DNA of 64,000 nucleotides, from contig OU612074.1 of NCBI GenBank assembly GCA_914767715.1, forward strand, positions 12,002,062-12,066,061, in the 5' to 3' direction. Of the stretch, positions 4,098-57,733 are shown piece after piece. The notes beneath the pieces are model-generated. The model saw nothing but the letters and a program-made list of their open reading frames with translations, did no database searches and was not told where the DNA came from. Position numbers and translations under genes: made by a program. Origin of the DNA: Membranipora membranacea (Eukaryota > Bryozoa > Gymnolaemata > Cheilostomatida > Membraniporidae). Numbering within the stretch: position 1 is the stretch's first letter; every line of letters begins with the position of its first letter.

Positions 4098-4960
4098 AAA
4101 GACACACAATTATTTAGTCAGTTTGTAATTTTGCTGTTATTTGAGCTTCTTAAATGTTGTTACAACACACGCAAACTGCCATGTGTAGCATATATATGGT
4201 GTAACAAAAATTAGGACATTTGATAGTTTGCTTATTACGGATGAAGACACAATTATTTAGTCAGTTTGTAATTTTGCTGTTATTTGAGCTTCTTAAATGT
4301 TGTTACAACACCGCAAACTGCCATGTGTAGCATATATATGGTGTAACAAAAATTAGGACATTTGATATTTTGCTTATTACGGATGAAGACACACAATTAT
4401 TTAGTCACTTTGTAATTTTGCTGTTATTTGAGCTTCTTAAATGTTGTTACAACACCGCAAACTGCCATGTGTAGCATATATATGGTGTAACAAAAATTAG
4501 GACATTTGATATTTTGCTTATTACGGATGAAGACACACAATTATTTAGTCACTTTGTAATTTTGCTGTTATTTGAGCTTCTTAAATGTTGTTACAACACC
4601 GCAAACTGCCATGTGTAGCGTATATATGGTGTAACAAAAATTAGGACATTTGATATTTTGCTTATTACGGATGAAGACACACAATTATTTTGTCACTTTG
4701 TAATTTTGCTGTTATTTGAGCTTCTTAAATGTTGTTTCAACACCGCAAACTGCCATGTGTAGCATATATATGGTGTAACAAAAATTAGGACATTTGATAT
4801 TTTGCTTATTACGGATGAAGACACACAATTATTTAGTCACTTTGTAATTTTGCTGTTATTTGAGCTTCTTAAATGTTGTTTCAACACCGCAAACTGCCAT
4901 GTGTAGCATATATATGGTGTAACAAAAATTAGGACATTTGATATTTTGTTTATTACGGAT
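4098..4960. repeat. six-copy tandem repeat, about 143-144 bp unit
   Basis: The unit runs from AGACACACAATTATTTAGTC through GTTGTTACAACACCGCAAAC, TAGCATATATATGGTG and GACATTTGATATTTTGCTTA to TTACGGATG. Copies start near 4098, 4241, 4385, 4529, 4673 and 4816. They are almost identical, so the expansion is recent. It is a local satellite-like array; no ORF. Confidence 0.95.
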
Positions 4961-5038
4961 GTTCAATACCGATTCCTCTCAATATCACTCAACTTAAAAT
5001 TTACGCACTTTTGTTCCATATTGACCATTCTTATACAG

Positions 5039-32888: not shown

Positions 32889-35800
32889 GTGAGTATATAT
32901 ACCCTTATAATTGATAATGAACTCATTTAAATAATTCCTAACTAACTCAAACTGAATTTTAGTCTTACTTACAATTACATCATAATAATAATGATTATTA
33001 TTTATTACTATTACTATTAGGATACAACTCTTACTACTATTTAGATAGTCAGTGAGTAAACACTGACTCATGCTGCTGTGGTGAGATACTGAAGCTGCTG
33101 TTAGTGAAGTGTTAATCAGAAACAACAAAATCTTGCACAGCCACTAACTGAATATCAGATAGTTGCTGTGCGCTCTGTGCGGTGTGGGTCAGTTCCTCGA
33201 GGCAAATTTAAGAAATAAATCGTAGATAGAATAATGAATTTGATTTTTCTTGCTTGAAAGCTTTGACCTAGCTAGGCAGTTGAGTTACTACATACGTTAA
33301 CTTTCCATTTTTATCAATCTCAAACAGGTCGTCGAGGAAGAGTTTGACGAAGCGGTAGAATTACCAATAGAAGCAGACAGCACACTGCTATTATCCACAC
33401 TATCAGCCCAATATCCCGGTGCTACTGGTCTCAAATACAGGTAAAGTATGGTGTGGGCTAATGAGTAGATCAAGGCACACAGTATTTTAACAGCATCCAC
33501 CAATTTTATGGTTTTATATATCATTGGGAAACACTCGACACCAACAGCTTTCAGTGTACAAAATGAGCCTCAGTTAAGTGATGTTTGCAATTTTCTTTCC
33601 TCAATCTTTTTGATGAACAGCTTTCAAATGAATGTGAATATTGTAGGAATGAGTCAACAGGTAACTGGAGAGGAGTAAGAGTATCAGAAGGTAAACTACA
33701 GCCACCTGATGGAGCCTGGTCAGAGTCAACTGTGTACAATGTTGTCTATCCTAAAGGTCACTCACAAGGTAAGTACCATACCCAACTTATAGTCAGATCT
33801 TTTTGTCATCTCTTTCCGGCAATATCGATATCAAAACTTGGCTGCAAGTTCATTTTCGTAAATATCTGACATAACATGCATGCGATAGGGGATTGTAATT
33901 CCAATTGGTTCCTCTACTTCTTCTACTGCGTGGGCATTTGTCCTTATTAAAACCTGACATCTTGATTTATCCGCACTTCTCTAGGTTGGACTATCATATT
34001 GAAATATGGAACTTATGCTCATAAATGCTACAGCGTATCAGTATTATATCTAATATGTTAATACACATTTAGAAAATAAACGTAAGGGAGAACAGTTTGA
34101 CTCTGCTGGCACTACAGCTAAGCAGAAGCGGCCAGCCTCCGAGCAGAACATCTCAGATTTACAGAAGACAAGCGATCTGGTCATACTTGGACTCGCCTAC
34201 ACAGCTTCGGAGGGAGATCTTAAGGATTACTTTGACAGCTTTGGCACTGTTCTTATGACGCAGGTAGGTTCTTAGTAAGTTTAGATCATTCTGCTAAGCA
34301 TGTTATTGTGGTTGCTACCTATTTACCACAAACTTCCCATGTAACCAACTATTCGGCAGGCCAGAATCTCCACAATCAAATCTACTCGAGCCTCCAATTT
34401 TTTTTTGTTCAAGCCAACTAGGTTGATATGACTGGCGTATCTTGGACTGTTCAGATTGATGATTTCTTTTTTTTTATTTTTAAGATAATGGTCCTCAGCT
34501 GTTATTCGGTGGTAATCTGTTTTTTTTTTTTCATGCTTCGTTCACATTATCAGCAGAACGGATCATTGATCATTGAGTTGCTTATCTGAAAGAATTTAGT
34601 GGTTGAGATAAGCGTATTCACCTTGCTTCGAGATATAGCACTACCTCTTGTTAAGATTTTGCGATTACTGATACAAACACTTAGTGATAAAACCAAAAAC
34701 ATTTTAGCATATGAATCACTCTCTCTACATGTATGCAACTATTTGCAGCTCTCTTAGTTTTCAATATTTTGTCTCTAGTCATCTGGTTACTTCCGCGTTT
34801 TCCTGGCGGTACTATCAATGAGGCCTCTCTCATTCAAATCTCCTCATGTAACTGGAACCCCTATCAGCCATAGTGACATCCTCTTTTTCTATATGGACTG
34901 TAAAGCCACGTTTCACAACTAGGCCCCTGTCTGTTGCTCAACCGCCCTACAGCTTAGATAGGAAGCAGATGCTGCCTTGAGGTCTTATCCCTATCAGGAA
35001 TTTAACTGTGTTGTGATGCTTATAATCGCTCCAAGCGGCTGATTGAAACTGAAGGTCATTCGGCCTTCGAATAAGTATTTCAGCTCCTTTTTTCTATGCT
35101 GGACGTGTTAAATAGAAAGTACCAAGCCAGGAGAGGGCAAAAGTAATTCTGAATTCTGACACGATTATCTGGCAATTGTTACTTTTTGATATCGACCTTG
35201 GCACTGTGCAACAGTAAGCACCGTATTTGAACATTAGGTCTGTTATTTCTCCAGCTGATGTGTACGAAAAAACTTGTTTGTTTGAAGTGATATCCTGTAT
35301 CGCCTTGCTTGCCCATTATTTGTAGGCAGATATTTAAATGCATTCTTTTTATCCACTTCACGTGCTCCTGTAGTGCAGTCGCGAAATCTGGTTTTTCCGC
35401 GTCTTTACTAAGACAAACTCCACCATCCTGAAAACAATCTCAATAACCAGTTGTTAACACAGGTAACCAATGTTTATGCTGAAAAACTATGTTGGTTGTC
35501 ATAATCTGCTTCATTCATCTTGATCATCTTATTGCACCTCCTTCCTCGCCCACTCTCAATCATAACCTTTCGGCATGAAGTTGGTTCATATGTGATTGTT
35601 GACTATGCATTGCTGGTAAGCACATTTTGAGAAACAGACAATGTCTACAATTTGCACTCCAAAAGTGTGGACAGCATCAGCTAGAATGTCCTTGAGTAGG
35701 TCAGATCTGAAGTGATATGTCTTTGGCTCATAAACTGCTTTTAAATGAAAGCTCGTTGAAGTTTTGTCCATACCATTCTTAGCTTAGGTGTTATACCATC

Positions 35801-38800
35801 TTCTTCAGAATATATAGAGTACAAATATTTTTAGTTTATTCATGACCGATCAGATTATGACCCAATAGCCACTCCGATTATTCTCAGATTACCAAATGGA
35901 TAGAAGACATTGAGCACCACCCCCCCTCCCCCGAGATGCTGACTAAATTACAGATTTATGACAAGATAATAAATCATGACAAAAATATAATGGCCAAAAT
36001 AACCAAAAAATTCAATTCATAAGTTTTTTACAGATATATGACAAGACAAAATGACAATAATAAGATAAATTACAAAATAACACAACAATTCAATTCATAG
36101 GTTTTAAAAAAATAAAATCAAAGATTTATGAAAATATAGTAGCCTATATGGCCAACTAAAATAATATAGATTCCAAAATAACACAAAATAAAATACTCTC
36201 TAACACTCTTCCAACAGCCTCACCATCGAGGTTAATCAGTGGCCCAACAGAACTATAAACAGCAAATCCATTTTCTGATAATATGCTCCTCATACACGCC
36301 ATTCCAGAAGTCTCTGTGTGAGACACCTTGTTTATCTCTGTCGGCAGCTACTAGCAGTGTGCGAATGGGACGTATTTTGAAGGGACCCGTGACCTTGTAC
36401 TTGGGTTTTAGATGGGCAGTGTAACCCATAAATGAGGTGGCTGTAAGAGCGATCACATTGGATGGAATGGGGTTTCTCTGTGAGTTTCGGAAAACCTCAA
36501 CCAAGTCGGAGGGTAAATCAACATCTCTCATGCAGTCGACAGCATTCATGTCTCGGTCACACTCCATGTAAGAATGACCATGGATAGGATAGTTGAGTGC
36601 GATCTTGTTGGACCTTTTTACATCAAGAACAAGCCAATGAAAGAAACGAAACAGGGTGTAATTCTTATTTTGGCCGGCGCAGCCGTCACAAAACAGCTCT
36701 AGCTCGATGATGATTGGTGGAATGTTATTAATTATGAAGTGTTGCAGTATTGAGGTCACCTCATCAGATCCATTTGCCCTTACATTTGGTTTCCAAGGCT
36801 TCTTTCTCATCTTTGAAGGACCTCACATGTGGAACACAAACATATTGTCTAAATTGGTATTGAGCAGATTGCAGTAGGTTTCTTAGCCATCTCTAGAATA
36901 TCCCTACCAGCCACAGCCTACAACATAAATAGTATACTATGAACCTCTATGCAGGAGAATAATAATAATGCTGATAATGATTCAATCAACCACGTTCTGT
37001 CATAATTGCATTAAAACAAGATTTTTTGAAAAAATTTTTGATAAGACATTGCATTGTAACTTGTTGACACAAGAATGAGAATTCCCCCAAGTGATTCTTA
37101 CCTACGCCAGTAGTCGTAAGTTGACACTTGACTGGTTCTATTTACTCATTGGTACATTGAGTGAGGTGTATCTCCCTGGCTTTGGTCCTTAGGCTGGGTC
37201 TCGGTTAGGAAATTACCCAGTGCCTGAGCTCCGGGGTCAACAGTACCAGCCTCAAACAAATTATTATGAATTTCCATTCTAAAATGGTGATTGTTAGAGG
37301 GGTCTACACCTCCTTCAATGTGATTGTCTAATAACAACTCTCCTTCTTCAGCTTCTGAAGGGTGTAGATCTCTGTAGTAGTGTCCATGATGTTTTATTTC
37401 TTAGCAGATTAAGTTGATGAAAATTTTTTTTTTCGTTGACTATTAAGTTGTAAACCCAAACCGGAAGTGTCGTTAGTGTACCCTTACCGCTATGCCATTA
37501 TTCACATTTCACTCCTCTATGCACCATTTCTAGTAAATAATTCCCATCTGTCACTTTTGATGAATGACACAAAAACACAATAATAAGCTAAGATAAACAT
37601 ACATGTAATAAATAAAAACATAATGCCTTACAATCACAGAGATGTAACAGTCATCGCATTCGCAAACATGACCATTCCTTCATGTCTGTATTCTCTTTCA
37701 TTAGTGCTCCCAGCTATGATGGTAGATGACGTACCATCGCTAGTCTTCAGTGTGTTCCTGTCAATGTAGACGATGTCTAAAAGATTAACTATTGCAGGAC
37801 ATAATAAAAGTGCTTGCACTGTTTAAAATATGATAATATTAATTTAAAACAAAAAACTCATGTATATTTCACTAACATAGAATGAAAAGAAAGAAAATGT
37901 GTTGTCGATAAACAAGAATTTCACAACTAAATCATGTTCTCAACAAAACCATTATATCTAGACCTACCTTCTACTGTTAAATACACAATACTTTGAAATA
38001 ACAGGGCACTCCCTTAGAGCCATAATCAAAATCAAAGAAACTGATATACTTCCGACATTGAATTCAGAGTTTATGTCATAATTCATCTGATTGGCCATGT
38101 CCTCATCAAAAGACAGATGACCTTGTTCAGAACAACAATATTTGCACTGAGTTGCATCACTGTGCATTTCATGTCCACCATGTATGGTAGATTGAACTTG
38201 AGCATCTCTGTTGTATGTTATCTTATCCAAAAATACGCAACCATCTCTTAACTTCATCATCATTATAAGAGATTACCGGTTCAACTCTGGATATCATAAT
38301 AGCATCAACATTCTCGCACTGATCATTTTCTACTACCACATCAACATTTCTTAGCACACCTCTTGGTGCAGGTATTGGTTTCTGAACAGCATGTTCATAC
38401 ACAACAGTATTAAAACAAACATCAACTCTATCATCATTGACACAAACGATTTCAGACTTCAGTAGTGACATCCTTGGAGCCGGAATTGGCTTACATGATA
38501 TGGTATTGACACTTACATCACTTACCTCTGCTGTAAATAGACTATCATTAGAAATAGCAACAGTACAACATAAAAGGGAAGGATCACAGAATTAGCAGCA
38601 GTGGGCATGTTGTGGTTTGAGTGCACTGGGGCATGTTGCTGAGCATTAGTCGTCTGCTGCTGCTGGGGTTGATAAACCTGCTGTCTTTCAGGACAGTTTC
38701 TAGAAATCTGGTTATATTTTCCGCACGAATAGCATTGGAGGCCTTGATAGTTCCGGTTAGGGTTGGCCCTGTTCCCTACACCGTTGTAATTTCCGCGGTA

Positions 38801-41800
38801 ACCATTTACATTACCACGACATCTACCCCTACCCCTAAAGTTGTTATAACGAGGCTGATAATTATTATACTGAGCCTGTTGTGGTTGATTCTGATGAGTG
38901 CCATTATTAACCTGTTGCAGCTGTTGTTGCTGGGTGTTAACTTGAGTCGTTAAAGAAGCTAGCGAGGCAACAAGCTTGTTCAAGACGTCATGCTCAGAAA
39001 CTAAAGTGTTCTTTTTAGATTTACGCTTGCGCTTCCTACTATCAGCATCCTCATAGCTTGAGCCTGAAGAGCTGTCTGAAGAATTGCTTGAGGAGTTCAT
39101 GTCATCCGCGACATTTTCGGCAGCTCTTCGAAGCTCATCTAGTGTTTTATCATGGAGCATAGAAATTTTATTCCTAATGCTTTTTCGCAGCCCGCTTTTA
39201 AATTGCGCTCTCAAAAATGGCTCGACTGCATCATCTACACAAAAATCTACCGCAGATAAAATGCGCCTGTGATATTTACCTACTGATTCTTTTGATTTCT
39301 GTTTGATATTAGAGATTTTTACTGCGATTTGGTCATAAACATGCGGACCAGCAAAAGTCTCCCTCATATGTGCGACAACAGCATTGTAATCAGCCCCACA
39401 ATGATTCCTACGGAACTGCCTAGATTTTGATTTTGCTTCAGCTTTTAAATATAAGTCTAAAATGTCCCTTCTTTGATTGTCATTTGCCCCAATCCCTTAA
39501 AGGTCTAGTTGCCTATTAAAATTTGAAATGAAACTCTCAAAACTTTTAGCGCCAGTAAATTTATCAATATCTAGACGTGAGAGTTCATGGCGAGGCACAG
39601 CCTCAGCACATACCCTCACATCGTTACGCACGGAATTTGTCATAAGATTCATAATTTACATTGTGGCAGAAAAGGACTATTAACAGGAGACAGACAGCTC
39701 ATACAATGTTTTAACTTTCTAAAATATTCCTAAAATCCCTTACCCCTCAAGAGCAAAGCTAAGTTTATTCTGACACCATTGTTGGTTTTAGCTCATGGTG
39801 GTACTAAGGTGACCGTCCATGACGACTACTTTTGTAGACGCTACCAGAGCAGCCCCTTTTAGAGATAAGGGATAGATATCAATATCAATTACTCACTGTC
39901 TGTTTTATATCATAATTACCACTAACTCAATAGATATCCAAATTTACCATTAACTCAACCTGCACAATTATCAAGTCTAGATATTGAAAACTCTCTAAGA
40001 TACTTTATTTTATGTCTATTAAAAGTCAAAGTTAAAACACAGTTAAAATTGTATAAGTCAAAACTCAACTATAAGTTTAAAACTCAACTAACCGACTCCC
40101 TATGAATATCAAAGTTCTCATTTATATAGGCAGCGGTCACAACACCAGGTCTACGTGGACACACAATCAAAAGGTACAAATCATATATAATAGTCCGATA
40201 AAATCATAATGGTTCGATAACAACATAATTCTACGGCGGGAAACCGGCTTAGATCAAAAGGATGAAGCTATTTGATGAACTATAAAATTAAAGTTTTATG
40301 TAATATTTTCTTGTGGAGGGTGAAAGAAGAGGTAATATGTTACGGCATAAGAGATTTTGTCTATCTGGCAGCCAAGGATCAAACGATTTGTTGAACTATA
40401 AAATTAAAGTTTTACGTAACATTTTCTTGTGTAGGGTGAACAATCAGGTAAATTGTTACGGCATAAAGGACTTTGTCTGTCTGGCGGCTGACTTATCATT
40501 TAAAGTTAATATTGTTACGTCAGGATCCATCCAGCGGCTGACTCTAACTAGGTTATGTGCAAAGAGAATACAAAAACTGCTTTGTTCAATCCACAACAAG
40601 CTTGGTGGTGCAGGTCCCATCATCAAAGAACTTGATTGACGACACTTTAGTGATCCCAGGGATAGGTTTGAAATGCCTGGCCAAAAATGTATCCCAGGTT
40701 GTACCACTGCCATGCTGGATATGTGACTGCGCTGTTGGTCTCTGATGCCGACCTTTCTACAGCATCAGCTAGGTGTTGGCTTGTATAATTGTCTTGTCTC
40801 CTATACTTCATATATATCAGCCCAAAGCGGCCATCAGCGAGGGATCTTGTATGGCCCACCTCCATATATACATAGATTGCCATGGCAGCCTTGCAACATT
40901 CTCCAGCAGAGGTAAGCCACGACCGACTTGTCCTTGTTCTGACCTCAGCAGTTGTCAGCATGTAGAATCAGGTTTAGATAAGGCTCCATCAATCCGCCCA
41001 GGTATTGATGAAGCATTGATATCGTGCAGTTAGGTCCGTGACTCTTCTTACCATCATTCCCGACAGATGGTCTGATACTCACCGAAGAGTTTTTCTGATG
41101 TGGTTTTGATGTGTCGCTAACCACAAAAAGCTGAATTGGCCCTCCAACCCGAAAGTACATGGGCCCAACGTGCCGTGTGGTTGTTGGAATGCTCAGCTGC
41201 TCGGCGAAATCAAAGATGAAATGTTTCAGCTTACCATAATTTACATGTCTGATGAAGCTCCTCTAGAGATTGTATCCAAGACAGATCCAGATGTGTGAGT
41301 GACGTTAGTCTGGTCACAACCGCAGGCAGAGATTTGAATACATTATTGTTTCTATAGATATACTGAACGATCCAGTCTATAATAGACAGTAAAATAAGAG
41401 ATAAAGAGAAAGTATCTACAAATAAAAGTAAAAAATGATATTAAAACAAATACAAGCAAACCATCAATCTGTATACAATCTGCAGATTAAAATTAAAATG
41501 GGAGTGACAATCTTACACACTAGATACACCGAGGTACATATCTGAGTGTATGGTTACCACTGAGGTTCAGCGTCTGTAGCTTAATCAACTGTGATATCCT
41601 GTAAAATATATATAATATGAGTCAGAAACAGTTACCTGGTGCTTATATCAGTGAGACCACAGTAAGACAGATCCAGCTCAGACAGCTCATATATACACCG
41701 AGGTACATATCTGAGTGTATGGTTACCACTGAGGTTCAGCTTCTGTAGCTTAATCAACTGTGATATCCTGTAAAATATATATAATATGAGTCAGAAACAG

Positions 41801-44800
41801 TTACCTGGTGCTTATATCAGTGAGACCACAGTAAGACAGATCCAGCTCAGACAGCTCATATATACACCAAGGTACATATCTGAGTGTATGGTTACCACTG
41901 AGGTTCAGCTTCTGTAGCTTAATCAACTGTGATATCCTGTAAAATATATATAATATGAGTCAGAAACAGTTACTCGTGCTGGAGGATTGATCTTATAATG
42001 CAATTATCTTTTGAATGATAAATCCAATTTTCCTCATTCCACATAAACATTATCAAACTATATCAAATTATCTCATATTTAATCCGAATATCTATATAAT
42101 TAATAAATAGAGAATTATTCTCCTGTGACATGAGTGCAAAGATGAATTTACGCTACTGATATCAGTCACATACAAAACAGACACACATACCTGGTGCTGA
42201 TATCAGTCAGTAGCTCTTATTTTCATAACTACATCAGTAATTCTAATGACATCCCGCTGTCCATTCATTTCCTCCTGGCATCAGGATCACAACGTCTAAA
42301 TCTGTTGCCGAGTGAGCATTGCTATCGCCCCATCTGATGCCGGCCTGACCACAAAACTAACAGTCGCCCCGCTCAGGTGGTGTAGTAGCTCATTCTGGAA
42401 TCTCACAAGCCTAGATACATGAGTCTCCCATTATGAGGACTGAACAATTCCTGACATTCCTCTCAACTGGACGTGCCACTTCCTGTTTCAAGTGGTTAGG
42501 TATATGCCTACTTTAAGCCATTCTAATCAGTTAAAGATAAATAATGAGTATATCTTTAGGGGTAAAAAACTCTGTAATTTTGTTTATACATTTCGAGTAA
42601 ATAATTCCCATCTGCTCACAAAATACATAAATGCTGTAGTTGAAATTTTAGGTAAATGACCCAATAACATTATAAAAAGCTAAGATAAACATGCAAAATG
42701 TAATAAATGAAAACACAATGCTTAGCAATCACAGAGACATAACTGTCCTTGCAGTCGCAAACATAACCATTCCCTTCGTCTCTCTATTCTCTTTCATTAG
42801 TGCTCCCAGCTATGGTTGTAGATGATGTACCATAACTTGTCTTCAGTGACTGTCTGTCAATTTAAAGTCTATTTACGTCTCTGATGAAGCTCCTCTAGAG
42901 ATTGTATCCAAGACAGATCCAGATGTGTGAGTGACTTAAGTCTGGTCACAACAGCAGGCAGAGATTTGAATACATTATTTTTTCTATAGATATACTGAAC
43001 GTTCCTGATATCTAACTTCTCTAGTCGAGTCAGACTATCCAGTCTATAATAGACAGTAAAATAAGAGATGAAGAGAAAGGATCAATAAATAAAAGTAAAA
43101 AGATGAAAGTAAAACAAATACAAGCAAACCAACAATCTGTATTCAATCTGCAGACTAAAATTAAAATGGGAGTGACAATCTTACACACTAGATGCCAAAA
43201 CTCAATGTTAATATTGCAGACACAGTTACTTATCATAGTAGTCACTGCTTTCTTGAGCCTTAGCCATGCGATTGCAATACGTCAGGAGCTTTCTTTTTAT
43301 TTTCCCCTGTACATGGCTTGGTGCTTATATCAGTGAGACCACAGTAAGACAGATCCAGCTCAGTCAGCTCAGACAGCTCATACACTGAGGTACAGATCTG
43401 AGTGTATGGTTACCACTGAGGTTCAGTTTCTGTAGCTTAGTCAGCTGTGATAGCTTGTATAATATATAATATAATACTGCTGTCAGCATTAGCACGATCT
43501 TCTACATTTTCAATTTCTGGTTAAGAATATAGGATACACACACATACCTGATACTTATATCAATCATATACAGAATACAAACACATGCCGGGCACTGATA
43601 TCAGTCATATTCAGAATACACACATACCTGGTGCTTATATCAGTGAGACCACAGTAAAACAGATCCAGCTCAGACAGCTCATATATACACTGAGGTACAG
43701 ATCTGAGGGTATGGTTACCACTGAGGTTCAGATTCTGTAGTTTAGTCAACTGCGATATCCTGTATAATATATAATATGAGTCAGAAACAGTCACTTGTGC
43801 TGGAGGGTGGATCTTATAATACAATATCTTTTCAATGATAAATTCAATTTTCCTCATTCCACACAAACATTATCAAACTATATCATAATAACTCATGCTA
43901 AATCCGAATATCTATATAATTAATAAATAGAGAATTATTCTCCTGGGAAATGAGTGCAAAGATGGGAAAACATAGAGAAGGCGGCGGTGGTCAATCCATG
44001 GGTGGAGATAATTACAACAGGAATAGAGGAGGCGGTAGGGATCAAAGGGGATGCTCCATCTCCCCCAACTCATCACGATTCTAATAACAGAAACGGAGGC
44101 AGATTAAGTTGATGAAAAATTTGTTTCCTTGACTGTTGAGTTGTAAACCCAAACCGGAAGTGACGTTAGTGTACCCTTACCGCTACGTCATTATTCACAT
44201 CTCATTCCTCTATGTACCATTTCGAGTAAATAATTCCCATCCGTTCTCAAAATATATAATTAATGTCGTAGTTGAAATTTTTGATGAATGACACAAAAAC
44301 ACAATAATAAGCTAAGATAAACATACATGTAATAAACAAAAACATAATGTTTGGCAATCACAGAGACATAACAGTCCTTGCAGTCGCAAACATAACCATT
44401 CCCTTCGTCTCTCTATTCTCTTTCATTAGTGCTCCCAGCTATGGTTGTAGATGATCTACCATCACTTGCCTTCAGTGAGTGTCTGTCAATTTAAAGTCTA
44501 TTTACGTCTCTGATGAAGCTCCTCTAGAGATTGTATCCAAGACAGATCCAGATGTGTGAGTGACTTAAGTCTGGTCACAACAGCAGGCAGAGATTTGAAT
44601 ACATTATTTTTTCTATAGATATACTGAACGTTCCTGATATCTAACTTCTCTAGTCGAGTCAGACTATCCAGTCTATAATAGACAGTAAAATAAGAGATGA
44701 AGAGAAGGGATCAATAAATAAAAGTAAAAAGATGAAAGTAAAACAAATACAAGCAAACCAACAATCTGTATTCAATCTGCAGACTAAAATTAAAATGGGA

Positions 44801-47800
44801 GTGACAATCTTACACACTAGATGCCAAAACTCAATGTTAATATTGCAGACACAGTTACTTATCATAGTAGTCACTGCTTTCTTGAGCCTTAGCCATGCGA
44901 TTGCAATACGTCAGGAGCTTTCTTTTTATTTTCCCCTGTACATGGCTTGGTGCTTATATCAGTGAGACCACAGTAAGACAGATCCAGCTCAGTCAGCTCA
45001 GACAGCTCATACACTGAGGTACAGATCTGAGTGTATGGTTACCACTGAGGTTCAGTTTCTGTAGCTTAGTCAGCTGTGATAGCTTGTATAATATATAATA
45101 TAATACTGCTGTCAGCATTAGCACGATCTTCTACATTTTCAATTTCTGGTTAAGAATATAGGATACACACACATACCTGATACTTATATCAATCATATAC
45201 AGAATACAAACACATGCCGGGCACTGATATCAGTCATATTCAGAATACACATATACCTGGTGCTTATATCAGTGAGACCACAGTCAGAAACAGTCACTTG
45301 TGCTGGAGGGTGGATCTTATAATACAATATCTTTTCAATGATAAATTCAATTTTCCTCATTCCACACAAACATTATCAAACTATATCATAATAACTCATG
45401 CTAAATCCGAATATCTATATAATTAATAAATAGAGAATTATTCTCCTGGGAAATGAGTGCAAAGATGGGAAAACATAGAGAAGGCGGCGGTGGTCAATCC
45501 ATGGGTGGAGATAATTACAACAGGAATAGAGGAGGCGGTAGGGATCAAAGGGGATGCTCCATCTCCCCCAACTCATCACGATTCTAATAACAGAAACGGA
45601 GGCAGATTAAGTTGATGAAAAATTTGTTTCCTTGACTGTTGAGTTGTAAACCCAAGCCGGAAGTGACGTTAGTGTACCCTTACCGCTACGTCATTATTCA
45701 CATCTCATTCCTCTATGTACCATTTCGAGTAAATAATTCCCATCCGTTCTCAAAATATATAATTAATGTCGTAGTTGAAATTTTGGATGAATGACACAAA
45801 AACACAATAATAAGCTAAGATAAACATACATGTAATAAATAAAAACAAAATGTTTGGCAATCACAGAGACATAACTGTCCTTGCAGTCGCAAACATAACC
45901 ATTCCCTTCGTCTCTCTATTCTCTTTCATTAGTGCTCCCAGCTATGGTTGTAGATGATGTACCATCACTTGCCTTCAGTGAGTGTCTGTCAATTTAAAGT
46001 CTATTTACGTCTCTGATGAAGCTCCTCTAGAGATTGTATCCAAGACAGATCCAGATGTGTGAGTGACTTAAGTCTGGTCACAACAGCAGGCAGAGATTTG
46101 AATACATCATTGTTTCTATAGATATACTGAACGTTCCTGCTATCTAACTTCTCTAGTCGAGTCAGACTATCCAGCCTATAATAGACAGTAAAATAAGAGA
46201 TGAAGAGAAAGGATCAATAAATAAAAGTAAAAAGATGAAAGTAAAACAAATACAAGCAAACCAACAATCTGTATTCAATCTGCAGACTAAAATTAAAATG
46301 GGAGTGACAATCTTACACACTAGATGCCAAAACTCAATGTTAATTTTGCAGACACAGTTACTTATCATAGTAGTCACTGCTTTCTTGAGCCTTAGCCATG
46401 CGATTGCAATACGTCAGGAGCTTTCTTTTTATTTTCCCCTGTACATGGCTTGGTGCTTATATCAGTGAGACCACAGTAAGACAGATCCAGCTCAGTCAGC
46501 TCAGACAGCTCATACACTGAGGTATAGATCTGAGTGTATGGTTACCACTGAGGTTCAGTTTCTGTAGCTTAGTCAGCTGTGATAGCTTGTATAATATATA
46601 ATATAATACTGCTGTCAGCATTAGCACGATCTTCTACATTTTCAATTTCTGGTTAAGAATATAGGATACACACACATACCTGATACCTATATCAATCATA
46701 TACAGAATACAAACACATGCCGGGCACTGATATCAGTCATATTCAGAATACACACATACCTGGTGCTTATATCAGTGAGACCACAGTAAAACAGATCCAG
46801 CTCAGACAGCTCATATATACACTGAGGTACAGATCTGAGGGTATGGTTACCACTGAGGTTCAGATTCTGTAGTTTAGTCAACTGCGATATCCTGTATAAT
46901 ATATAATATGAGTCAGAAACAGTCACTTGTGCTGGAGGGTGGATCTTATAATACAATATCTTTTCAATGATAAATTCAATTTTCCTCATTCCACACAAAC
47001 AATATCAAACTATATCATAATAACTCATGCTAAATCCGAATATCTATATAATTAATAAATAGAGAATTATTCTCCTGGGAAATGAGTGCAAAGATGGGAA
47101 AACATAGAGAAGGCGGCGGTGGTCAATCCATGGGTGGAGATAATTACAACAGGAATAGAGGGGGCGGTAGGGATCAAAGGGGATGCTCCATCTCCCCCAA
47201 CTCATCACGATTCTAATAACAGAAACGGAGGCAGATTAAGTTGATGAAAAATTTGTTTCCTTGACTGTTGAGTTGTAAACCCAAACCGGAAGTGACGTTA
47301 GTGTACCCTTACCGCTACGTCATTGTTCACATCTCATTCCTCTATGTACCATTTCGAGTAAATAATTCCCATCCGTTCTCAAAATATATAATTAATGTCG
47401 TAGTTGAAATTTTGGATGAATGACACAAAAACACAATAATAAGCTAAGATAAACATACATGTAATAAATAAAAACATAATGTTTGACAATCACAGAGACA
47501 TAACAGTCCTTGCAGTCGCAAACATAACCATTCCCTTCGTCTCTCTATTCTCTTTCATTAGTGCTCCCAGCTATGGTTGTAGATGATCTACCATCACTTG
47601 TCTTCAGTGACTGTCTGTCAATTTAAAGTCTATTTACGTCTCTGATGAAGCTCCTCTAGAGATTGTATCCAAGACAGATTCAGATGTGTGAGTGACTTAA
47701 GTCTGGTCACAACAGCAGGCAGAGATTTGAATACATCATTGTTTCTATAGATATACTGAACGTTCCTGCTATCTAACTTCTCTAGTCGAGTCAGACTATC

Positions 47801-50800
47801 CAGCCTATAATAGACAGCAAAATAAGAGATGAAGAGAAAAGATCAATAAATAAAAGTAAAAAAATGAAAATAAAACAAATACAAGCAAACCAACAATCTG
47901 TATTCAATCTGCAGATTAAAATTAAAATGGGAGTGACAATCTTACACACTAGATGCCAAAACTCAATGTTAATATTGCAGACACAGTTACCTATCATAGT
48001 AGTCACTGCTTTCTTGAGCCTTAGCCACGCAATTGAAATATGTCAAGAGCTTCCTTCTTATATTCCCCTGTACATGGCTTTAACTTGGAATTACTTTATG
48101 TTTAGATGCGTTGGTAATATTTAATCATTTAGCTCAGCATCATATACACTGCATGCTGCTGTCAGCATAAGTAAGATCTTCAATATTTTCCATATCTGGT
48201 TAAGAATACATAATACACACACATGTACCTGGTAATTAAATCAGTCCTATACAGAATACAAACACATGCCTGGTACTGATATCATTCATATACAGAATAC
48301 AAACACATGCCTGGTGCTGATATCAGTCATATACAGAATACACACATACCTGGTGCTTATATCAGTGAGACCACAGTAAGACAGATCCAGCTCAGTCAGC
48401 TCAGACAGCTCATATATACACCGAGGTACAGATCTGGGTGTTTGGTTACCACTGAGGTTCAGCTTCTGTAGTTTAGTCAACTGCGATATCCTGTATAATA
48501 TATAATATAAGTCAGAAACAGTTACTTGTGCTGGAGGATTGATCTTATAATACAAATATATCTTTTGAATGATAAATCCAATTTTCCTGGTGCTTATATC
48601 AGTGAGACCACAGTTAGACAGATCCAGCTCAGACAGCTCATATATACACTGAGGCACATATCTGAGTGTATGGTTACCACTGAGGTTCAGCTTCTGTAGC
48701 TTAGTCAACTGTGATATAATGTATAATATAAAATATGAGTCAGACACAGTTACTTGTGCTGGAGGATTGATCTTATACAACATGTCTTTTGAATGATAAA
48801 TCCATTTTCCTCATTCCACATAAACATTATCAAACTATATCACAATATCTCATATTAAATCCGAATATCTATATAATTAATAAATAGAGAATTATTCTCC
48901 TGCGACATGAGTGCAAAGATGAATTTACGCTACTGATATCAGTCACATACAAAATAGACACACATACCTGGTGCTGATATCAGTCAGTAGCTCTTGTTTT
49001 CATAACTACACCTAACAACATCCTGCTGTCCAGGTCATTTTCTCCTCGCATCAGGATCACGACACCGAAATCCGTTGCCGAGTGAGCATTGCTTTTGCCC
49101 CATCTAATGCCGGCTCCTCTCAACTACGGTCACCCCGCTTGGGTGGTGTAAAAGCTCATTCTGCTATCTAACCAGCCTTGATACATGGGAGTCTCCTATT
49201 ATGCTGACTGAACAATTCCTGACATTCCTCTCAACTGCAGGTACCACTTCCTGGTTCCTTCTGTAAGCGATTTTAATCAGTTAAAGATAAATTAATGAAT
49301 ATAAAATTGATAAATTGCAAAACAGACGATGTCTTTTCTGTTATTCAGTAAAAAGGAACGAAAAAAAAAATCTGCAAACAGGTGAGATTAATAAATTAGC
49401 ATAACTCGATATATAGGCGCACTGAGGTACTTGATAATGCCTGAGCCGTGATGATATAACTACAAAATATGAGGCTCAAAGGCCAGGCTAAAAGTTAGTA
49501 AAATTACAAAGAATAACGAAGTACTGTGCTATCAATCAACAGAGCCTTGTCACATTGCTCAACAAAAAATGAGTTCTTTAGGTGTAGTGGTGTAAAAAAC
49601 TCTGAATTTTTTTTTATACATGAGGCCAATGGCCTGCATTGACTTTTGCCGCCATATGGATATGTGAAGAAGATGATCTGTTGATAGCCAGATAACCTTG
49701 CCTGCTTTCTGTGAAGACTGCTGATGGCCTCCTGGCTCCAAATGTTACCGGGTACAAGAGTTGTAGTGTTGCGCTGGTACTAATAATTTGAAGTACATCA
49801 GACCCCATTGACAGGTGCTTATTGACCAGGCAAAGACTTTACCAGCCTTTCAACGATTACTCTCATCATGAGTGTAGACACAATACATACAAACTCTGAT
49901 TTACACTTGGGCTAAATGTCTTTTCATAAATCCGATGAAGGCCTGTGAGCCGTACCTCTGCTTGTTTGTCTAGAGAATTTTTTTTTTCTCAACTGAGTTG
50001 AACAAAGTCTTGATCGTACTGAAGTTACATCAATCATTCCCACGGGGAATTGATGCCAGTCAATGGTTTTTTTTTATAGCAACCCTGGTGGTTTTTGTCA
50101 GCACCTCTCTGTTGGGCCTGTTCAGCAATGATGGTGATTATTTAACATTTTGATACCTCTAAATTCCAACCTTGCCTGTACCTCCCATATTCGTCCTTTG
50201 GAGCGTCATGTATGTTGCTCCCATAGACTGAATAATAAGTCTATGGTTGTTCCTCATTGCTACTAGCGGTTAACTCTACCGTTGAACAAAATAGAGCAAT
50301 ATATAAATTACTCTGTGAATAATAATAATGAAAATGAAGATAAGATTTGGATAAAATCGAATATAGAAGGGAAATACATGGCCTCTGTCTAGTTTGTCTA
50401 CTTGACCCAATGACTGCCTATTGAGAATGGGAACTTGTTGTGGATATTCTTGTTTTCTTGTCTTTCATTCAGTCAGCGTCATTCCAGTAATATTTTCATA
50501 GCGGTGTTAGATGATTCAATGGTTGTTCTAGTACCTCAATGAATATAAATAATACAGAATAAATAATACTGGACTAATAATACAGAATTAATAATACAGA
50601 ATAAATAGGGGATACGGGTGGGGGGGGGGGGGGTACAAACTGCACTAAAACATAGGACCCTATCTTAATTTGTTCATCTTCTGCGCAGGGTTATCGCTGA
50701 TGTCATTCAAATCTACTTTGTCTCCAGAGCTGTCTTCTGTCCTTAACTGTCTATGGAGAATGGTAACTTTATGTGGATATTCTTGTTTTCTTTTTAACTT

Positions 50801-53800
50801 TTGCTGGCTACATTTGCTTCCTTTGACAAGAATTGGATAAAATCGAATACAAAAGGGAAATACACATTGTCTGTTTTACATGGGTTCTTGACCCAATGAC
50901 TGCCTAGGAGAACGGTAACTTTATGTGGATATTCTTGTTTCCTTGTAACTCTTGCTGGATAAATTTGTTCTCGTTGACAAGAATTGGGTAAAAATCAAAT
51001 ATAGATGGGAAATAACTTAGTTGTTGGTAATATTTCAACAAATAATGTAACTACGATTCGATGTGGCTCTTTCAGGGAGAGCATTGTCTAAAATCTTGGT
51101 AGCTACATTCTTGACTTTCAATCAGTCAGCGTAATTTTGGTAATTTTTTCATATCAGTCTAAGATGATTCAAAGGCTGTTCTAATGTCTCAATGAATATA
51201 TATAATAATTAATATAGAACAAATAATATGGAATTGATAATATTAAAATATAAAATAAAATAGATAGATAAATAAAATTTTGCCAACATATATATATACA
51301 TGCCATTATATTAAAAAGCAAGATGTGACTCATTTTTGAGTGATCCTCATAGACATAATATGAGGTCTGTGCTTTTGTGCCTATTACATATTTTTATGTG
51401 AACCTTCTTTTTTTTGCACAGATAAAGCGAGATCACCAGACCCACAAATCTAAGGGCTTCGGGTTTGTGAGGATGGGTGACTATGAGACACAGATGAAGG
51501 TCTTATCCCAGAGGCACATGATCTGTGGTAGATGGTGTGAGGTCAAACTACCCAACTCTAACGCTAACAGGGTGAGTACCTAAGTGTCAGGCAGTAATTT
51601 CCATATGATCAGCACTATTTTCAACTTCCGGGGTTGATCTGAATGTTGAGAAATCATCCTTCAGCTATCTTTGCAACTAACAATAAGTCATCAATTTGTG
51701 GTTAGATTTTCCAAATCAGAATTGATTTTCACTAAGTGTGCTGTAAGGTTATTTTGAGCATTATCCTTAAATTTTATGAACAATAAGAATATGAAGAGTA
51801 TCTAGTTTGTGTTGTCAAAAGCAAAATAAAACATAACATTGTGCAATGATGCTGATTTCTTACATAGAAATACTGGTCCATGCACGAGAAACCCAACACA
51901 TTTATTTATTATAGGCCAGCAGCGGCTATACATAAAAGGCTCTAAAAATTACATCTGTGTAAGTGTCTTGAACAGAGAAAATTGAAGACTGTATCTGGTG
52001 TAGTTTTTTATGGCCGTTCTGATGACGCATATGTACCATTTCACAAATGGGGCAAAAAGGGGCGAATCCAAGTAAGAAACACGAAAAAGGGGGTTAAAAG
52101 GGCGTTTTTTGCAATTTAACTTCTCTTGGCAAAGTTCATAGAATGAAGCAGTGTCATTGAATTTTTTTTATCAATATCATGCATATCTTGAGTAGTCTTT
52201 TGGAAAATATCATACTGCTAAACCCAATGGTTGACGTTTTACAGACAAATTGTAGTCACCCCTCGAACACAGTTGCGGCATAATAATAGGTTTTGTGCAA
52301 GCGTGCAAGAATAACAGTGATAAATGTACTTCTCATGTCATTTTTCATGATTTGTTTATAAAAAGACCCCATCATAAAGTATCTGGTAGCAGTGTAATAA
52401 TAAATTGAAAATATATGAGAAAGGGGTGGATCCAGTTGGGATGTGAAAAACAGGTAAACGTTTATGAAGTTTTATTCTGGTAAAGCGTGTAATCTGATTA
52501 TGTATTTTGAATTCAATAGCTATTTTAAATAGCACATAAGTATCACTGCTAAAACAAAACAAAGAAAGGATGCAAATTCATACTAGTTTAAAGGTAAAGG
52601 TCTTCATCATCGGTAATTTGGTCATACTCATCTTGCTGAGTGTCGTCCCTGCCATTGTCGCATTGAAGGCATCCACACAATTGCGTACAATGCAAACCGA
52701 CCTTCAAACATGAACATCCACCGCTTTTGTCTGGGGTAGTTTTTATGGCCGTTCTGATGGCGCATATGTACTATTTTACAGATGGGGCAAAAGGGGGCGG
52801 ATCCAAGTAAGAAACGTGGAAAAGGGGGTATATATAAAGAATTTTTACCATTTAACTTCTTTCGGCAAAGATCATAGAATGATGTGGCGTCATTGAAATT
52901 TTTTATCAATATCATGTATATCTTGAGTAGATTTTGAGAAAATATCATACTGCTAAATCCATCTATTGACGTTTTACAGACAGATTGTAGACACCCCTCA
53001 AACACAGTTGTGGCATAAAAATAGGTTTTGCCAACCTTTCCAGAATAACAGCGATAAATAAACTTCATATGTGATTTTCATTATCTTTTTATAAGAAGAC
53101 CCTCATATAAAATAACTGGTAGCAGTTTAATTATGAATTGGGAATATATGGAGACAGGGTGGATCTAGTTAAGATGTGGAAAACTGTTAAGATGCAAAAA
53201 ACAGGTAGAGTCCAGAAACTTCTTGCCAATGAGTGATCAAAAAATTGCATTTAATAATAATTATCTCTCTGGGGTTACCTAGAATTGAGTGAAACTAGAC
53301 CCGAATTTCGCTGCGAATCCAATTATGTAAAGTTCATAACTCTCAGAGTGCATATTCTTTCTACAGAGGCTAAGAAAAGACAAAAAAGTTGCAAAATTTC
53401 GTTTTTTAATGAGCCTTCTGTATGTGTATTATCTACCAAAGCACAAACAGATCCTCTTTATTGACTTATTGAGAGGTGCAATACAAGTGCACACCAGTAT
53501 AAACAAAGATATATCCACAATGTGACCAGTGTCAACGTGAAGGAAAGCAAAGAAAGACGAACTAACGTGCTTATCAAATGCATCGAAAACCTGTATTGAT
53601 ATAATACATTCTTTATCAAGGTAAAAATCCAGTCAATGACTAATTAGAAGGTGAGATATATGTACAAACATATACAAAATTGTAACATAAAAATACAATA
53701 AGTGAATACCAACAATAATATGACCTGTGTAAACAAGAAGGAAAGCAAAAAAAAACGAGTATTTCCTGCTGCGAAAACCAGTATTGATAAATACATTCAA

Positions 53801-56800: not shown

Positions 56801-57733
56801 CCATAGTTTCAGTGTGACCTTACCAAAATATGTTGTGTTGAATGCCAACAGTGTTTGCTCCTTTGAGCTGATACAATTTGATTGGAATATTTAGGGTAAG
56901 ACTCAGCGATTTCAGTTATCGTTTATCATGTGAGCGGTTGTTTAGGTTGGTCAAAGTTCACTAATACCTGATGCTGTCTTGTTCTGGAACGCAGGTTAGT
57001 TTTCTATTGATTGTTATTACGCAAGCATGGAATACATAATTATGTGTCTGTATTCTTCAGCTCTGCTGACCCAAAAGAGAAACATAGAGAAGGCGGCGGT
57101 GGTCAATCCATGGGTGGAGATAATTACAACAGGAATAGAGGAGGCGGTAGAGATCAGAGGGGACGCTCCATCTCCCCCAACTCATATCACGATTCTAATA
57201 ACAGGAACGGAGGCAACAACAACTCTGGCCCTGTCAACCCTATGAATAACCAGCAACAGCAGAACGCCCAACCAGGTAATATGGCAGCTGGTATGGGCTT
57301 CAATATGGCAGGCTTTCCAATGAACCCCGCCATGTTTGCCGCACTAGCCAGCCAAGGTATGTTTGGTATGCCTAACATGATGGGACCCAATGGGCCAATG
57401 GGTGGTTTCCCGAATCAACAGCAGCAGGGGTTCAATAACGCTCCTAATGGTGGAGCAAGCTTTAACTATGGAGGGTATGGTGCTCAGCCTGGTTACGGGC
57501 AGCAGCAGGGAGGGTTCGGTCAACAGCAACAACAACAACAGCAGCAGCAGCAGCAACCTCAAGGGGCGAGTGGGAATGGTGGGTCACAGAATAACTACGG
57601 GGGATCACCAGGGAATATGTGGGGTTCTAGTGGTGCAACAGGTGATAGCAGTAAGGATTTGAAGGGAACAGCTGGGTGGAGCCAAAATTCCAGACAAGAA
57701 CCAATGAACTCGAGTTCTGGTTGGGGCAGCTAG
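32871..57733 (+). CDS. TARDBP: TDP-43 (TAR DNA-binding protein 43) orthologue
   Basis: TDP-43 is a nuclear RNA-binding protein that binds UG-rich RNA, represses cryptic exons and controls its own mRNA through its 3' UTR. Exons: 32871-32888, 33328-33440, 33647-33768, 34073-34263, 51422-51571, 56376-56480, 56668-56792 and 57061-57733; all phases agree, 1497 nt, 498 residues (human 414). Domains: N-terminal oligomerisation domain about 1-80 ([26 protein letters not shown]); basic NLS about 86-106 (NKRKG, KQKR); RRM1 from about 117 (RNP2 LVILGL, RNP1 KGFGFVRM); RRM2 about 208-276 ([15 protein letters not shown]); then a Gly/Asn/Gln-rich prion-like tail with the conserved helix region ([16 protein letters not shown]), a run of 12 Gln and the ending SSGWGS. 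The human RRM1 Trp after LP is Tyr here, the second Cys of WCDC is Val, and the RRM2 cysteines remain. Intron 4, inside RRM1, is about 17 kb and full of duplicated DNA. Confidence 0.97.
36253..36810 (-). pseudogene. transposase-derived ORF (GQNKN / [10 protein letters not shown] type)
   Basis: A 185-codon frame contains [20 protein letters not shown], then [11 protein letters not shown] and [15 protein letters not shown], with an ending rich in K/P/I ([17 protein letters not shown]). The D-x-C-x-GQNKN and GH-S-x-x-x-x-DRD motifs define a large family in invertebrate genomes, usually annotated as an uncharacterised DUF7869-like domain and probably derived from a DDE-type transposase. The frame starts just after a stop and has no N-terminal domains, so it is a fragment or one exon. 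It lies antisense in TARDBP intron 4, next to the Gag remnant. Confidence 0.65.
37146..37337 (-). other. short ORF of unknown function in the transposon cluster
   Basis: A 63-codon acidic frame ([20 protein letters not shown]) lies between the transposase-like ORF and the 37.6-kb segment on the same strand. There is no recognised motif. It could be a linker exon of the same element. Confidence 0.2.
37402..37830. repeat. segment shared with every LRR repeat unit
   Basis: From CAGATTAAGTTGATGAAAA to about 37770 this stretch is closely related to 44100-44480, 45604-45985 and 47233-47610, and in part to 42580-42860. On the minus strand the 37.6-37.8 kb version is the most open copy ([15 protein letters not shown] and a Cys-rich alternative frame VCECDDCYI), while the repeat copies carry stops. 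It therefore looks like the donor, or the closest copy of the donor, of part of the LRR repeat unit. Confidence 0.75.
37964..38263 (-). other. ORF of unknown function with CxxCC motif, probably transposon-related
   Basis: A 99-codon frame contains [20 protein letters not shown] and hydrophobic stretches and ends next to a possible donor (AG then GTAGGT). It lies between the Gag remnant and the transposase-derived ORF on the same strand. I do not recognise it; its place suggests an upstream exon or domain of the 36-kb element. Confidence 0.3.
38223..38540 (-). pseudogene. Gag-downstream linker ORF with repeated KPIPAPR motif
   Basis: The frame overlapping the end of Gag continues as an acidic, low-complexity stretch with two copies of KPIPAPR about 46 residues apart. 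Proline-arginine motifs of this kind occur in linkers of some retroelement polyproteins. No protease active site (DTG or DSG) is visible. It is most likely the remnant between gag and a lost pol. Confidence 0.45.
38522..39652 (-). pseudogene. retrotransposon Gag polyprotein, decayed
   Basis: Reading from the ATG at 39652 there is one long frame of about 376 codons interrupted by a TAA at 39497-39499. The N-terminal part and the block [20 protein letters not shown] resemble a Ty3/gypsy-type Gag capsid region; then come a Ser/Lys-rich stretch, a Gln/Asn/Arg-Gly-rich nucleocapsid and a zinc knuckle [14 protein letters not shown], in which the usual His of C-x2-C-x4-H-x4-C is Gln. No reverse transcriptase, RNase H or integrase is seen downstream. 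Gag would package element RNA; this copy lacks an open frame and a proper knuckle, so it looks inactive. Confidence 0.82.
39770..39800 (-). other. possible retroelement primer-binding site and LTR edge
   Basis: On the minus strand, ACCAACA is followed after one base by TGGTGTCAGAATAA, about 130 bases before the Gag start codon. A TGG-beginning tRNA-complementary stretch right after a sequence ending in CA is what an LTR/primer-binding-site junction looks like. I could not find a matching second LTR, so the call is tentative. Confidence 0.35.
40262..40492. repeat. two-copy direct repeat of about 115 bp
   Basis: GAACTATAAAATTAAAGTTT, then GTAA-ATTTTCTTGTG, AGGGTGAA, GTTACGGCATAA and TTTTGTCT recur in the same order in two adjacent copies, before the second transposase remnant. 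Confidence 0.75.
40647..41160 (-). pseudogene. second transposase-derived remnant, frameshifted
   Basis: Two overlapping frames carry successive parts of one protein. 40945-41160 has [18 protein letters not shown] and, after a gap, [10 protein letters not shown] and [10 protein letters not shown]. 40647-40961 has [11 protein letters not shown]-like sequence (seen as [13 protein letters not shown]), then [12 protein letters not shown] and PAWQWYN. HADNC followed by GHT...FGLI...KYRR is the same motif order as in the element at 36.3 kb but a different subgroup. The frameshift and the missing GQNKN show decay. Confidence 0.55.
43966..44102 (+). pseudogene. TARDBP exon 8 fragment, copy 1
   Basis: About 137 bp closely matching 57079-57215 of the TARDBP last exon, in the same orientation. 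A few substitutions and a 2-base deletion (CTCATCAC for CTCATATCAC) shift the frame to a TAA. An ATG at 43950 in the flank is in frame, giving a 44-codon ORF ([10 protein letters not shown], then the RGG-like stretch). The parent exon's splice acceptor is not included. Confidence 0.92.
45469..45605 (+). pseudogene. TARDBP exon 8 fragment, copy 2
   Basis: Same fragment with the same breakpoints, the same 2-base deletion and the same in-frame ATG as copy 1 (small ORF 45453-45587). The shared lesions show that it was captured once and then amplified with the LRR unit. Confidence 0.92.
47098..47234 (+). pseudogene. TARDBP exon 8 fragment, copy 3
   Basis: Third copy with the same breakpoints and deletion, differing by a silent A-to-G in the Gly codon run. 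The small ORF is 47082-47216. Confidence 0.92.
50343..51245. repeat. diverged direct repeats in TARDBP intron 4
   Basis: TGGATAAAATCGAATA...AAGGGAAATACA, GACCCAATGACTGCCTA and TGGATATTCTTGTTT recur near 50350-50460 and 50830-50940, partly near 50755 and 50995. TCAGTCAGCGT...TCAATGAATATA recurs near 50470-50550 and 51120-51205. Also a poly-G run at about 50619-50633. Confidence 0.7.
51996..52450. repeat. dispersed direct repeat of about 460 bp, degenerate copy
   Basis: Parallels 52729-53190 almost throughout (ATGGCCGTTCTGATG, ATATCATACTGCTAAA, TTGACGTTTTACAGACA). On the minus strand the frame that is open in the other copy is broken here by at least two stops. Confidence 0.85.
52628..53068 (-). 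CDS. unknown 146-codon ORF in a duplicated repeat
   Basis: An open frame ([20 protein letters not shown], then [39 protein letters not shown]) with six or more Cys and a C-P-I-C...H...H arrangement that could bind zinc. The parallel copy at 51996-52450 has stops, so this is the better-kept copy, probably of a transposon. I do not recognise the family, and a real start is not evident. It lies antisense in TARDBP intron 5. Confidence 0.3.
   Translation of the reverse strand: MKFIYRCYSGKVGKTYFYATTVFEGCLQSVCKTSIDGFSSMIFSQNLLKIYMILIKNFNDATSFYDLCRKKLNGKNSLYIPPFPRFLLGSAPFCPICKIVHMRHQNGHKNYPRQKRWMFMFEGRFALYAIVWMPSMRQWQGRHSAR
53445..53915. repeat. three degenerate direct repeats, about 190 bp each
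   Basis: CAGATCCTCTTTATTGACTT, AATCCAGTCAATGACTAATT and AATCCTCTTCATTGACTAAT begin similar stretches that continue through ATACAAT or ATACAAA, GTGACC-GTGTCAACGTG and GAAAGCAAA. Non-coding, TARDBP intron 5. Confidence 0.7.
55087..55202. repeat. long near-perfect hairpin in TARDBP intron 5
   Basis: Two 53-base arms (55087-55139 and 55150-55202) are reverse complements with only two mismatches, separated by 10 bases (TTTCTCTCTT). The arms contain CCAGTGGTCGAGTGCCCCAG. Transcribed as part of TARDBP pre-mRNA, it would form a stable stem-loop. A related single arm fragment (GACGTGCACAAACTACAG) lies near 23680. Confidence 0.93.
57061..57733 (+). CDS. TARDBP: TARDBP last coding exon: prion-like C-terminal domain
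   Basis: After the acceptor at 57060 the exon completes RRM2 (SSADPKEK) and encodes about 224 low-complexity residues: an RGG-type stretch ([12 protein letters not shown]), Asn/Gly/Gln repeats, a hydrophobic Met/Ala/Phe block around residues 350-385 matching the conserved transient helix of TDP-43, 12 consecutive Gln around 57522-57557, and a Ser/Gly/Trp tail ending SGWGS. The stop is TAG at 57731-57733. Bases 57079-57215 are the source-like sequence of three copies in intron 4. Confidence 0.96.

Follow-up and report, generated by a model that had tools for sequence, protein, structure and literature searches.

How did a piece of the last exon of a gene come to lie three times inside an intron of the same gene? 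The question is raised by a window of 64,000 nucleotides from the bryozoan Membranipora membranacea (12002062-12066061 of contig C10, OU612074.1; a single genome is considered here), where TARDBP, which encodes the RNA-binding protein TDP-43, carries within its intron 4 three sense copies, hereafter T1 to T3, of a stretch of its exon 8. A sequence-only reading of this DNA had pointed them out, and had proposed that three parts of the host gene were rejoined there by template switching. The rearrangement belongs to a known kind: the end of a mobile element best appears to have received an insertion templated from nearby, probably together with a deletion, and tandem amplification followed. The copies themselves are most likely passive.

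Three copies of one exon fragment in the intron of their own gene

The donor stretch, 57080-57215 on the + strand (136 bases), lies in exon 8 directly after RRM2, at the RG/G-rich start of the tail. Each copy, also on the + strand, aligns with it over 134 bases and one gap of two bases: T1 (43968-44101) and T2 (45471-45604), identical to each other, at 95.6% and 217 bits, and T3 (47100-47233), which has one extra substitution, at 94.9% and 211 bits. The three near-identical sense blocks of the sequence-only reading are therefore found, but the starts it gave (43966, 45469 and 47098) fall two bases before the alignable ones. Chance similarity is ruled out: of 500 dinucleotide-shuffled versions of the fragment, none scored above 34.4 bits in the window.

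The copies share four substitutions (57151 A>G, 57157 G>A, 57164 C>T and 57205 G>A) and the loss of 57184-57185, which is the common two-base deletion already read from the letters. T3 alone adds 57142 A>G, and all these substitutions are transitions. Because of the two-base loss the copied frame shifts, and in T1 it runs into stops. Three of the four shared substitutions are synonymous in the frame of the donor (P = 0.10 under random transitions), which speaks neither for nor against selection on the copies.

In the whole assembly (339 Mb, 18 contigs) the fragment is matched at four places only, namely exon 8 and T1 to T3; a search of this type gives lower bounds for large families, and for this fragment four candidates were found and four were scored. 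No TARDBP paralogue or retrocopy that could have served as donor was found by this search. The capture did not extend to further placed exons of TARDBP, since the other six have no second match in the window at E <= 0.01.

That the host is TARDBP, as had been read from the letters, is confirmed by its predicted protein, which matches Pfam TDP-43_N (4e-25) and RRM_1 (1.5e-23, with two RRM stretches), and PDB 7py2 (TDP-43) over residues 1-269 (7.9e-90). With the glycine-rich tail read from exon 8, the N-terminal domain, the two RRMs and the tail that mark TDP-43 are all present; a PDB search with the tail exon gave only two weak, irrelevant matches. Seven coding exons are placed on the + strand between 33328 and 57733, with AG/GT borders and a single open frame. 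The last of them, exon 8, is set at 57061-57733 by its splice site and its frame. The intron that hosts the copies, 17.2 kb long (34264-51421), lies between the exons 34073-34263 and 51422-51571 and interrupts RRM1. It counts as the fourth intron provided that the placed exons are preceded by a single one carrying the start codon; no such exon was located.

The array and the left-hand partner of the copies

The copies belong to an array of 5.5 kb made of units of 1629, 1503 and 1629 bases and a partial fourth: U1 (42589-44217), U2 (44218-45720), U3 (45721-47349) and U4 (47350-48080). From left to right the order in a unit is K_right, an LRR-A exon on the - strand, a segment called "mid", LRR-B exons, a flank, T, K_left, and then the K_right of the next unit. 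U1 opens with 18 bases of the end of an element, described below, and a diverged K_right, and has T1 and most of K_left at its end. U2 carries T2, and U3 carries T3. U4 has no T and diverges toward its right end. U2 is 126 bases shorter than U1 and U3: it lacks, at the site 45281-45282, a piece present in both that includes most of one LRR exon.

On the left, each copy is joined to the flank of the LRR block, as the sequence-only reading had stated. The flank that ends at the left junction of T1 (43779-43964, - strand) differs by 8.6 and 8.7% from its relatives without T, at 41958-42144 and 48738-48921. In the three units the flank stops at the T junction; in both relatives it continues, after 42144 and 48921, into a segment Y (42145-42588, with its relative at 48922-49303) that is missing beside T. 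Before U1, Y directly adjoins the last 18 bases of the element, and K_right follows.

The label LRR comes from the Pfam LRR_4 and LRR_8 matches of a related frame at 48286-48810. As read from the sequence, the first LRR-B exon of U1-U3, the nearest to T, has lost the GT donor kept by its relative at 48351, so that the LRR block looks like a broken cluster rather than an intact nested gene.

The right-hand partner, an end of a dispersed element

On the right, T is joined to a relative of the segment at 37.4-37.8 kb, which agrees with what had been noticed before. This partner, K, consists of K_left (44099-44235, - strand), whose first three bases are shared with T and which is repeated at 45602 and 47231, and of K_right (44236-44492), which is shared with 37543-37766 and with U1. 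A search of the genome with K gave 24 matches, five in the window and 19 outside; matches are not equal to elements, as several of them lie close together on contig C1 and on contig C3. Eighteen of the 19 outside matches, on seven contigs, fall within positions 1-140 of K, and 15 of these 18 stop at positions 136-140; the remaining outside match covers positions 310-382. K_left is thus the end of a dispersed element, reduced to its last 137 bases. A truncated relative of this element, K37, lies at 37074-37542 (- strand). Of the 19 loci outside the window, which overlap in part, 16 also match the stretch of K37 beyond the T junction, and three of these matches extend to the junction itself. The right junction thus cuts through the element.

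DIRS-like elements have inverted ends, a reverse transcriptase and a tyrosine recombinase. The 18-base end of the element is found in inverted pairs, with a spacing of 2.4 kb on C1 and of 4.0 kb on C3; since both copies have further K matches immediately beyond one of their ends, the limits of the element are only approximate. Between the C3 ends a frame matches RVT_1 (2.9e-08, 34.1 bits for a cut-off of 29.6), and the next frame carries a second RVT_1 piece at 27.1 bits, under the same cut-off. Between the C1 ends the match to Phage_int_SAM_1 is sub-threshold (E 0.019, 15.7 bits for a cut-off of 22.3). Two other frames of C1 and one of C3 had no Pfam match. Since inverted ends and a reverse transcriptase are present, we call the element DIRS-like, its recombinase being unproven.

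K37 and the units of the array look like old duplicates of one insertion site, because K_right, beyond the end of the element, is common to both. As a separate observation, all that U1 retains of the element is its last 18 bases (42589-42606), directly after Y, which makes a second, different truncation of the same end. The K of U1 (42589-42875) differs from that of U2-U4 mainly in its first 140 columns and hardly beyond, and at 13 of the 16 such sites where K37 has a base, K37 sides with U2-U4. This agreement suggests an exchange or a conversion within K.

Divergence and order of events

The divergences fall in three steps. The LRR flank of the units bearing T is 8.6-9.2% away from its T-less relatives, T is 3.0-3.7% away from its donor, and among the T-bearing units the LRR-A, mid, LRR-B and flank modules differ by 0-1.5%. 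This order fits the sequence of events proposed below. The closeness of the units, together with the same differences and the same two junctions in every copy, upholds the earlier proposal of one capture followed by tandem amplification.

The claim that three parts of the host gene were rejoined is not supported, as the partner on the right is the end of a dispersed element and K37 is an unlikely participant: K differs from K37 by 10.2-12.4% in U2-U4 and by 16.1% in U1. Among U2-U4, K_left and K_right differ by 0.8-2.2%. Under a model where the donor could change at synonymous sites only, the best-fitting divergence of T is 2.2% per lineage; the 5-6% per lineage needed for K37 gives a likelihood statistic of 3.5-5.7 (1 d.f.), with four substitutions. 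K37 as a partner in the same event is disfavored by its 10-12% divergence against about 3% for T, a comparison made on few sites; K37 probably took no part in the event that captured T.

The two junctions

At the right junction, GCA is common to the donor and to K37, that is a microhomology of three bases. Of 100,000 joins drawn at random from exon 8 and the K37 element, 4.8% were as good or better. The left junction has a filler of three bases, GGA, which fits neither side and stands between AAAGATG and AAACATAG. Neither poly(A) nor target-site duplication was seen at the T junctions, the apparent deletion limiting the test for a duplication. These marks are those of an end joining with a copied patch or of a template switching; the latter, which had been put forward from the letters, is among the fitting mechanisms, but it shares this place with the former.

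A probable origin by templated repair

We consider it likely that exon 8 supplied the patch by which a break or stalled fork close to the element was repaired, with a deletion, and that the product was then multiplied in tandem. The simplest ancestral order would be flank, Y, element, K_right and LRR-A. The break or stalled fork would have occurred in the cluster of LRR exons of TARDBP intron 4, in or beside an old DIRS-like insertion. Repair would have removed Y and all of the element on that side except its last 137 bases, and the gap would have been closed with a copy of about 136 bases of TARDBP exon 8, which lies some 10-13 kb off on the same chromosome, either through end joining with a templated patch or through template switching during replication. 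Unequal exchange or slippage would then have raised the chimaeric unit to three T-bearing copies, and the 126-base deletion would have struck the second unit afterwards.

That the donor is intact and single in the assembly speaks for this origin. Several points weigh against it. The microhomology of the right junction is barely past chance, K37 being moreover a stand-in for the true copy of the element, and the left junction has no microhomology. The deletion is one that we infer from the layout of the units without T, because the unit as it was before the event is not preserved. The history of the locus is more tangled than one event and a duplication, since the K_right of U1 is 8.1-9.2% apart from those of U2-U4, and since U4, which differs from the other units by 1.9-3.4% in LRR-A, differs by 7.4-8.2% in mid. 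Finally, as T lies wholly within one exon, a DNA template and an RNA template would have left the same copy.

This last point leads to the possibility that a reverse transcriptase copied TARDBP RNA and that the cDNA patched the break. T is exonic only, and such a route has been proposed for class 2 templated sequence insertion polymorphisms (TSIPs) (Onozawa and Aplan, PMC5110952). T, however, crosses no boundary between exons and so gives no positive indication of an RNA template, and it is antisense on the presumed coding strand of the element, so that a simple switch from TARDBP mRNA to the RNA of the element would fit poorly. We hold this route for doubtful, and for a little less probable than another one in which an inverted-repeat element carrying a TARDBP fragment, gained as in Pack-TIR (terminal inverted repeat) elements or by read-through, was inserted here; this one is also unlikely. 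T directly adjoins a piece of element, and inverted-repeat elements of animals are known to take up sequence from their vicinity (Tan et al. 2021, PMC8277862). Nevertheless there is a single element end at T: on the reverse strand of the window the 18-base end does not recur, even when up to 3 mismatches are allowed, and K forms no inverted pair of at least 60 bases. Element ends flanking T on both sides were found neither by this 18-base search nor among the listed 25 of 126 inverted pairs, which include one 20-base A/T-rich match between K37 and 49357-49376 that we take as chance. Besides, no copy of T with the element exists elsewhere in the assembly, and the element looks like a retroelement and not like a TIR transposon.

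An assembly artefact such as mis-joined repeats could also be suspected, as the units are 98-100% alike in many modules. It appears improbable, more so than the two preceding routes: the units carry private substitutions, the 126-base deletion is confined to U2, T differs from the donor at the same positions in every copy, and the array sits in a contig of 24.4 Mb.

Whatever their origin, could the copies serve TARDBP? They might act as decoys for the factors of exon 8, give antisense from the LRR strand, or behave as poison exons. T is in sense orientation within the host pre-mRNA; one GT per copy scores 7.8 with a crude donor matrix, for 3.9-11.8 in the donors of TARDBP; and the array holds four of the six TGTGTG words counted in intron 4 (raw count). 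UG repeats are binding sites of TDP-43, a protein that regulates its own mRNA. None of the counted TG words, however, is in T1. The acceptor-like sites near T reach at most 0.56 pyrimidines, in a gene whose own seven acceptors range from 0.38 to 0.88, two of them (0.38 and 0.50) below that value; with such donor and acceptor scores, use of T as an exon would be conceivable. The copied frame is broken, the nearest LRR-B exon has no splice donor, and the LRR strand, broken as it is, would have to be transcribed to yield antisense. The sequence thus gives no clear pointer to a function of T. Decoy or antisense roles are speculation, and unlikely; a regulation of TARDBP by the copies is, of all the readings considered, the one to which we give least credit, and we think no better of its wider form, where one repair accident would have supplied the self-regulation of TARDBP with sponges in the pre-mRNA or with antisense against the tail exon.

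Comparison with known rearrangements

Complex duplications ascribed to fork stalling and template switching (FoSTeS) or to microhomology-mediated break-induced replication resemble the locus by their separate pieces, short microhomology and gain of copies. Here, on the other hand, capture and amplification look like separate events, with about 3% against 0-1.5% divergence.

Class 2 TSIPs (PMC5110952) share with T a short insert from an intact donor, the absence of poly(A) and of target-site duplication, and junctions with microhomology and added bases, here GCA on the right and the filler on the left. In the same source the experimental inserts measure 73-414 bases, a range that includes 136. 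By contrast, the donor is here the host gene itself, "distant" by 10-13 kb only, the flanking DNA was apparently lost, and the insert was later amplified in tandem. The gap filling of single-copy Pack-TIR elements (PMC8277862) is similar in that the filler abuts the inner part of an inverted-repeat element, comes from the same chromosome and shows a short microhomology at one breakpoint. It differs in that one TIR DNA transposon stands there on both sides, which is not what is found at T: the element lies on one side only and is retroelement-like (RVT_1). That work also names FoSTeS. As for exon fragments of TARDBP in its own intron, no published report was found among the titles and openings of abstracts listed.

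If the proposed origin is right, the array would be a well-preserved fossil of local templated repair in an animal germline, a single gene holding the donor, the junctions and the later amplification. It would indicate that the old end of a mobile element can become a seam for shuffled pieces of host exons. Should a function be found, it would show one way for a gene to acquire regulatory copies of an exon of its own.

Other features of the window

No RNA family reached its gathering score, and the 24- and 27-base patterns drawn from K_right and from the LRR cluster had no exact match in viral contigs. Intron 4 of TARDBP also contains, on the - strand, a retrotransposon gag frame (38522-39496; Retrotrans_gag, 2e-06) that matches Ty3_capsid under its cut-off (1.6e-04) and, to the left of K37, a frame (36253-36822) with a borderline match to DUF7869 (25.0 bits for a cut-off of 26). 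Upstream of TARDBP and on the opposite strand, an RRM-like frame at 31358 seems to resemble TRNAU1AP. Farther away are about six tandem copies of a 144-base unit, 96.5-98.5% alike, at 4099-4961, and a galactosyltransferase-like exon at 8464-8769 on the - strand (Glyco_transf_7N, 7.7e-20).

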